A DNA stretch of 64,000 bases from NCBI GenBank assembly GCA_006384855.1, contig VCJN01000349.1:62001-126000 (forward strand), read 5' to 3'. The DNA comes from Tetraselmis striata. Lineage: Eukaryota; Chlorophyta; Chlorodendrophyceae; Chlorodendrales; Chlorodendraceae. The notes beneath the pieces are model-generated. The model saw only the letters and a program-made list of their open reading frames with translations. It was not told where the DNA came from and ran no database searches. Each line of letters begins with the position of its first letter. The first letter of the stretch is position 1. This document shows, piece after piece, positions 62,779-64,000 of this stretch. A program made the translations under genes and the position numbers.

Positions 62779-64000
62779 TCAGTAGCCTTCATACGATATG
62801 GTGATGTCCGTGGGGTGGTACGTCGGGTAGGCCCGCCGGATGAGTGCAGCTGCCACCTCATGTGGGGCGGGTCCAAACGCCACTGAATAGCCATATACGG
62901 AGCACGTCCTCTGCTCCGGGTTGTGCTCAATGCGACCACCTCCAAGGGCCTCCACCCCAAAGCCCGCCGCCCTTGCTTGCGCGCGTATCTGCGGTGCGGC
63001 GCAAGTGGTTGCGCTTCAAAACAATGCCGCTCGCTGCGCTACAGGTCCAGCCAAAAGTACCAGCGAGGGCCGGGTCGATGTGGCATACCTTCAAGAGCAC
63101 ATCGTTGTGGTACCCGGCCGCTGTGTGTCCCCAGACAACCAGCTTGGAGCGCCCGTCCCCGGACACCCGCGCCAGGACGTACTTAAAAACGCCTGCGTCG
63201 ATGCGCACCGTGTCCAGCACGTCGCCCGCCCAGGGTTGCGGCAACTCCTCAGCGAGCCAGTCGTCAATCATCTGCCGGGCCAGCGAGTGCTTCCCTGGCA
63301 GGCCAAAGTCCCCCCCATCTGCGCCAACAGGCAAAAAGGCAGCTCCTTTAAGACGCTCCAAGACTCCAGAGCGTGGGGTGAGGCAGTTGGTGGAGGCTTG
63401 TGTCCCTGCCTTGCTGGTAGAAATCGGTTTCGGGCCCTTTCAGCGCCTCCCGGATCCACTCCCTATGGAACCAGGAGGCATCCTCCAGCTCGTCTTCGTC
63501 AGGCTGTGGTAGCTGAAGTGCAAGCAAGAGGGGCGATCAGCGCATTTGTCTCTGCGGCATGCCATGGCTGTGAGCAAACGATAAAGAGAGGTCAGGCACG
63601 GGGGGTGTGCTCCATGCATGGGGAAGGAAGCTGGCAGACCTGAAGCCTTGGCGACATCGCCGCCTCTACCTCCTCTGGCTTCAGGCCGACACCAATGGCA
63701 GCCTGCCGGCCATCTGATGAGAGTGCGCTAAACCCATCCAGCGCTTCTCCCGCTGCAGGCGCGATCCCTGCCCACCAGGTGTGGCAGCGGCGCCACACGC
63801 GGTCAGGGCTCAGCAGGGATCGGAGTCACACGGCAGCCAGGCATGCCGTGCGCAACGCCTGCACCATTACCACGGAACCCGACCATCAGTGAGCGTGGGA
63901 ACGGCCATGGCTGCGACGAATGATACCGCACGCTCCCTACGTCCACAGCAACGCCCGTCTCTTCCTTCACCTCCCGCACCACATTCAGCTCCAGAGTTTC
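62779..64000 (-). CDS. Nudix (NudC-like NADH pyrophosphatase) fused to Janus/phosphohistidine phosphatase domain (partial)
   Basis: The gene enters from beyond 64000. Exons are 64000-63871, 63752-63640 and 63512-63043, then a last exon from about 62980 to the stop at 62779-62781. Exon 1 has the end of a Nudix box (REVKEETGV) and the NudC signature [14 protein letters not shown]. Exons 2-3 continue the Nudix fold ([29 protein letters not shown]). The same frame runs straight on into [15 protein letters not shown] and [15 protein letters not shown], the Janus/PHPT1 core with its catalytic His (GYH). The last exon gives [25 protein letters not shown] and EGY, closing the Janus fold. One frame change in exon 3 (about 63440-63365) may be an indel. 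The acceptor of the last exon is uncertain. The pairing suggests coupled nucleotide clean-up and protein-histidine dephosphorylation; this is inference. Confidence 0.75.

Follow-up and report, generated by a model that had tools for sequence, protein, structure and literature searches.

A probable NUDX19-type Nudix hydrolase with a C-terminal Ocnus/PHPT1 domain in Tetraselmis striata

The minus strand at the end of the 64,000-nucleotide stretch of DNA analysed here (the window) very probably carries part of one nuclear gene, the half that codes for the C-terminus of a NUDX19-type Nudix hydrolase (SQPWP group, subgroup II) ending in an Ocnus/PHPT1 domain. The Nudix-Ocnus fusion has already been described, because Maruta et al. 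(2016, PMC5118724) report an Ocnus domain in subgroup II, and the window protein is a new sequence of this published architecture. The domain combination has been published at the level of annotation, and the gene is of value for a testable question about the enzyme rather than as a new fusion. Provided that both domains work, its product would link the turnover of pyridine nucleotides to the dephosphorylation of histidine.

The gene model was obtained by splice-site and phase analysis, with splicing modelled from the DNA sequence. Five minus-strand exons join in frame into a protein of 261 or 276 amino acids that terminates at a stop codon. The first visible exon (63871 to 64000, donor GTAATG at 63870) contains part of the Nudix box and the motif SQPWPFPRS and is cut by the window edge: the window stops at position 64000, within the Nudix box, with the N-terminal half of the gene beyond it. 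Exon 2 (63640 to 63752) would code for the insert region of the Nudix domain (AGEALDGFS...) and is the least certain of the five, being placed by phase and splice sites, with no homology of its own. Exon 3 (63410 to 63512, or 63365 to 63512) covers the C-terminal part of the Nudix domain. The junction exon, exon 4 (63089 to 63318), holds the last Nudix segment, a linker of about 12 residues and the first half of the Ocnus/PHPT1 domain, including the equivalent of the PHPT1 residue His53, and exon 5 (62779 to 62988) adds the second half of that domain and the stop codon. The introns measure 118, 127, 91 (or 46) and 100 bp. Introns 1, 2 and 4 have GT-AG ends, and intron 3 has either a GC donor at 63409 (91 bp, GC-AG) or a weak GT donor at 63364 (46 bp, GT-AG), both of which keep the frame.

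This model redraws the gene as it had been outlined in the earlier note, where positions 63512 to 63043 were taken as one exon running without a break from the end of the Nudix domain into the start of PHPT1. The unbroken passage stands, within 63318 to 63089, and the limits do not. The stretch consists of two exons plus intron sequence, and a single exon was rejected, as the readings from 63512 and from 63318 do not share a frame and an intron is needed between them. Its 3' boundary is at 63089 (AAG/GTATGC) and not at 63043, and the following exon, 62988 to 62779, completes the Janus fold as had been proposed. Exons 64000 to 63871 and 63752 to 63640, absent from that outline, belong to the same gene model. 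TGTAA is a poly(A) signal in green algae, and a candidate is found on the minus strand at 62736 to 62740, with 38 bases between it and the stop; this is weak evidence, the motif being common in the window (88 occurrences on both strands versus 68.46 expected). The window, with a GC content of about 53 to 66% in 4-kb steps, holds a copia-type polyprotein and genes needing introns and was therefore taken as eukaryotic.

Both domains were recognized by Pfam in the 261-residue conceptual protein, on the same strand, in order and in frame, as the earlier note had claimed, and its family names (Nudix and PHPT1/Janus) were right. Ocnus (PF05005) matches residues 150 to 249 with an E-value of 1.1e-28, spanning positions 4 to 107 of the 108 of the profile, and its score of 99.9 bits against a cut-off of 23 makes this a clear match to the Janus/Ocnus (PHPT1) family. 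NUDIX matches residues 1 to 101 at 4e-05, also above the curated cut-off. Neither match can reasonably be put down to chance. Three of the five unspliced open reading frames (ORFs) match Pfam on their own, two of them to Ocnus (1.1e-06, and 5.4e-17 for the ORF of exon 5) and one to NUDIX (0.00087, with 19.7 bits under the cut-off of 21.1 for a domain cut by the window edge); the two ORFs that hold exons 2 and 3 gave no Pfam match. The NCBIfam model for NAD(+) diphosphatase, PRK00241, matches at 4.2e-23, and its 82.2 bits lie below the equivalog cut-off of 158, as expected of a truncated protein from which the N-terminal half is missing. A search of the PDB with the same protein (E up to 0.01) gave nine distinct sequences, namely, three 14 kDa phosphohistidine phosphatases and six NAD+/NADH pyrophosphatases, with human PHPT1 at 1.8e-18 and the NAD+ diphosphatase 8zb3 at 4.6e-13; the Ocnus part of the query drew PHPT1 chains only. 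An Rfam scan of the window gave no matches.

The Nudix part shows the features of a known family. The EX7REUXEEXGU portion of the Nudix box is complete in exon 1, with the GX5 start of the full GX5EX7REUXEEXGU signature beyond the window edge, and SQPWPFPRS fits the SQPWPFPxS motif which, placed just after the Nudix box, defines the SQPWP (NUDX19-type) group (PMC5118724). According to the same study, the plant and algal members split into subgroups I and II, the latter with sequences from Physcomitrella patens, Klebsormidium flaccidum, Chlamydomonas reinhardtii, Volvox carteri, Coccomyxa subellipsoidea and two Micromonas, and its main text gives an extra Ocnus domain (printed "Oncus") to every enzyme of subgroup II outside Micromonas. 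Like the window protein, these enzymes carry Ocnus in the same chain as a NUDIX domain that has SQPWPFPxS; the likeness is one of described architecture and not of aligned sequences, and their N-terminal NUDIX-like and zinc-ribbon domains would lie outside the window. The Arabidopsis enzyme AtNUDX19, which belongs to subgroup I and, as concluded in PMC5118724, cleaves the pyrophosphate of NADPH, shares the NUDIX domain with SQPWPFPxS, but the three domains listed for it in that study do not include Ocnus. The statement in the earlier note that no fusion of these two families had been described has to be withdrawn, as that paper records such an Ocnus domain for subgroup II enzymes from green algae, a charophyte and a moss. 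The presence of the fusion in relatives is likewise on record there, where its absence from all of them had been named as grounds for giving the fusion up.

Among proteins of solved structure, 8zb3 and NUDT12 (6o3p) have the Nudix box and the QPWP motif in common with the window protein in our alignments, and 8zb3 and both NUDT12 chains (6o3p and 6scx) also share its C-terminal segment. Unlike the fused window protein, 8zb3, NUDT12 and the NADH pyrophosphatase chains 1vk6, 5iw4 and 5isy are named as pyrophosphatases only. We also scanned viral contigs with the 261-residue protein, the 114-residue Ocnus part and a 56-residue alignment of two sequences, and bacterial and archaeal genome contigs with two two-sequence alignments, and found no relative in any of the three viral scans or in either of the prokaryotic ones; patterns made from one or two sequences may miss distant homologues, and these null results say nothing against the fusion in algae.

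Human PHPT1 (14 kDa phosphohistidine phosphatase, 2ai6) is a stand-alone chain of 125 residues, whereas in the window protein the PHPT1 part is the C-terminal domain. The two are identical in 46 columns over a 108-residue segment of the human protein, whose residue numbers we assigned by count on the printed alignment. The position of Arg45, which we take to be an active-region residue, is occupied by Trp. The two proteins share the catalytic His and most residues of the active site. With the residue sets as defined in PMC4817053, all four active-site side chains (Lys21, His53, Arg78 and Ser94) are identical, and so are five of the six residues of the catalytic set that also includes Ala54 and Ala96, with Asn in place of Ala54. 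Conservation is lower in the peptide-binding set (Glu51, Tyr52, His53, Tyr93 and Met95), where three of the five residues are kept and Glu51 and Met95 are replaced by Gly and Val. His102, named in the review PMC11277029, is conserved.

Because of the three replacements in these sets (Asn, Gly and Val for Ala54, Glu51 and Met95), the substrate of the phosphatase may differ or its activity may be lost. We regard it as possible, if rather unlikely, that the fusion is real and its Ocnus domain no longer works as a phosphohistidine phosphatase or has taken on another substrate. It would then be a module for phosphate binding or regulation, or act on the 2'-phosphorylated product that NADPH cleavage yields. 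This is a sub-case of the single fused gene, with which its probability overlaps. The replacements speak for such a change, but Lys21, Tyr52, His53, Arg78, Tyr93, Ser94, Ala96 and His102 are all kept, and Ala54 is described in PMC4817053 as contributing through its NH group.

The fused enzyme as a whole probably has two activities, those of an NAD(P)H pyrophosphohydrolase and of a phosphohistidine phosphatase. The Nudix part would hydrolyse NAD(P)H to nicotinamide mononucleotide(H) and (phospho-)AMP, and the Ocnus part would remove phosphate from protein phosphohistidine (or phospholysine), with the equivalent of His53, the general base of phosphohistidine hydrolysis in PHPT1 according to PMC11277029, in the same role. 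The fusion would put both activities in the same compartment. That the two domains work in series seems to us improbable; in such a scheme, Ocnus would take the phosphorylated product of NADPH cleavage as its substrate, or the Nudix part would sense the NAD(P)H state and thereby control the phosphohistidine dephosphorylation of a chloroplast or peroxisome target. The earlier note had suggested that NADH (or cap) hydrolysis could be coupled to the dephosphorylation of histidine, an idea for which the analysis gives neither support nor refutation. A literature search over titles and abstract openings found no study on the function of the Ocnus part in these enzymes.

An argument for one gene is the junction itself, as the last Nudix segment and the start of the Ocnus domain share one open exon, 63318 to 63089. 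A stop between the domains, which had been proposed as a sign of separate mRNAs, does not occur there. Ocnus begins at residue 150 and the NUDIX match in Pfam stops at residue 101, short of the Nudix segment at the junction, so the identity of that segment rests on its alignment to solved pyrophosphatases. In the search with the whole protein, residues 87 to 145 align to residues 251 to 306 of 8zb3 as a second stretch (i-Evalue 0.04). When the Nudix segment of exons 3 and 4 was run against the PDB by itself (E up to 10), it found three sequences, all of them NAD(H) pyrophosphatases: 8zb3 at 0.0024 (its residues 251 to 305) and NUDT12 at 0.14 and 0.2. Singly these matches are weak, yet nothing outside the expected family turned up, and the order is also as expected.

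The same exon holds the one feature that would suit two adjacent genes, an in-frame ATG (at QMIDDWL) from which a separate PHPT1 gene could start behind a Nudix gene, if the two were not separated by alternative transcription. This ATG, however, sits inside the last Nudix segment, where the protein aligns to LPGSISIAREIVESW of 8zb3 (an alignment that is weak alone), and the minus strand from 62741 to 64000 contains no TGTAA in our motif scan, which is again weak evidence in view of how common the motif is. With the junction inside one open exon, and with the same fusion published in other green species (PMC5118724), we rejected two separate genes as highly unlikely.

The single fused gene lies next to a copia-type LTR retrotransposon, delimited by its terminal repeats and Pfam domains at 56401 to 62338 on the minus strand. 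One ORF of the element (56786 to 60277) carries RVT_2, gag_pre-integrase and SH3 domains in Pfam, and the adjoining one (60278 to 61669) appears gag-like by eye, with no Pfam match. Its 316-nucleotide repeats (56401 to 56716 and 62023 to 62338) are 99.05% identical, and the element, which lies downstream of the gene, comes within about 440 bases of the stop codon. It is very doubtful that the gene is a decaying copy beside this recently inserted element, its frame open only through the non-canonical or weak donor of intron 3, since none of the five modelled exons interrupts the reading frame, the catalytic residues are kept, the retrotransposon is outside the coding region and GC at the third codon position exceeds that at the second in all five exons (by a modest difference in exons 2 and 5, in a comparison made without a non-coding control).

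Among the 39 ORFs of at least 200 amino acids in the window, nine were run against Pfam, of which five gave a match. Two long ORFs on the minus strand, at 46082 to 47767 and 49409 to 51058, are similar by eye, and the first of them, the only one of the pair to be scanned, contains a phage-integrase N-terminal SAM-like domain (1e-06), which suggests that they are tyrosine-recombinase mobile elements. An ORF at 43859 to 44515 (minus strand) matches the DAHP synthetase I family at 7.6e-20 and resembles by eye a KDO-8-phosphate synthase of plant type, and one at 38371 to 39522 (plus strand) contains a piece of an elongation-factor GTP-binding domain (4e-13) and looks like an HBS1/eEF1A-like GTPase. 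Last, the ORF at 12355 to 13260 (minus strand) matches an Exostosin GT47-like glycosyltransferase at 5.4e-08, with 32.9 bits against a cut-off of 33.4.
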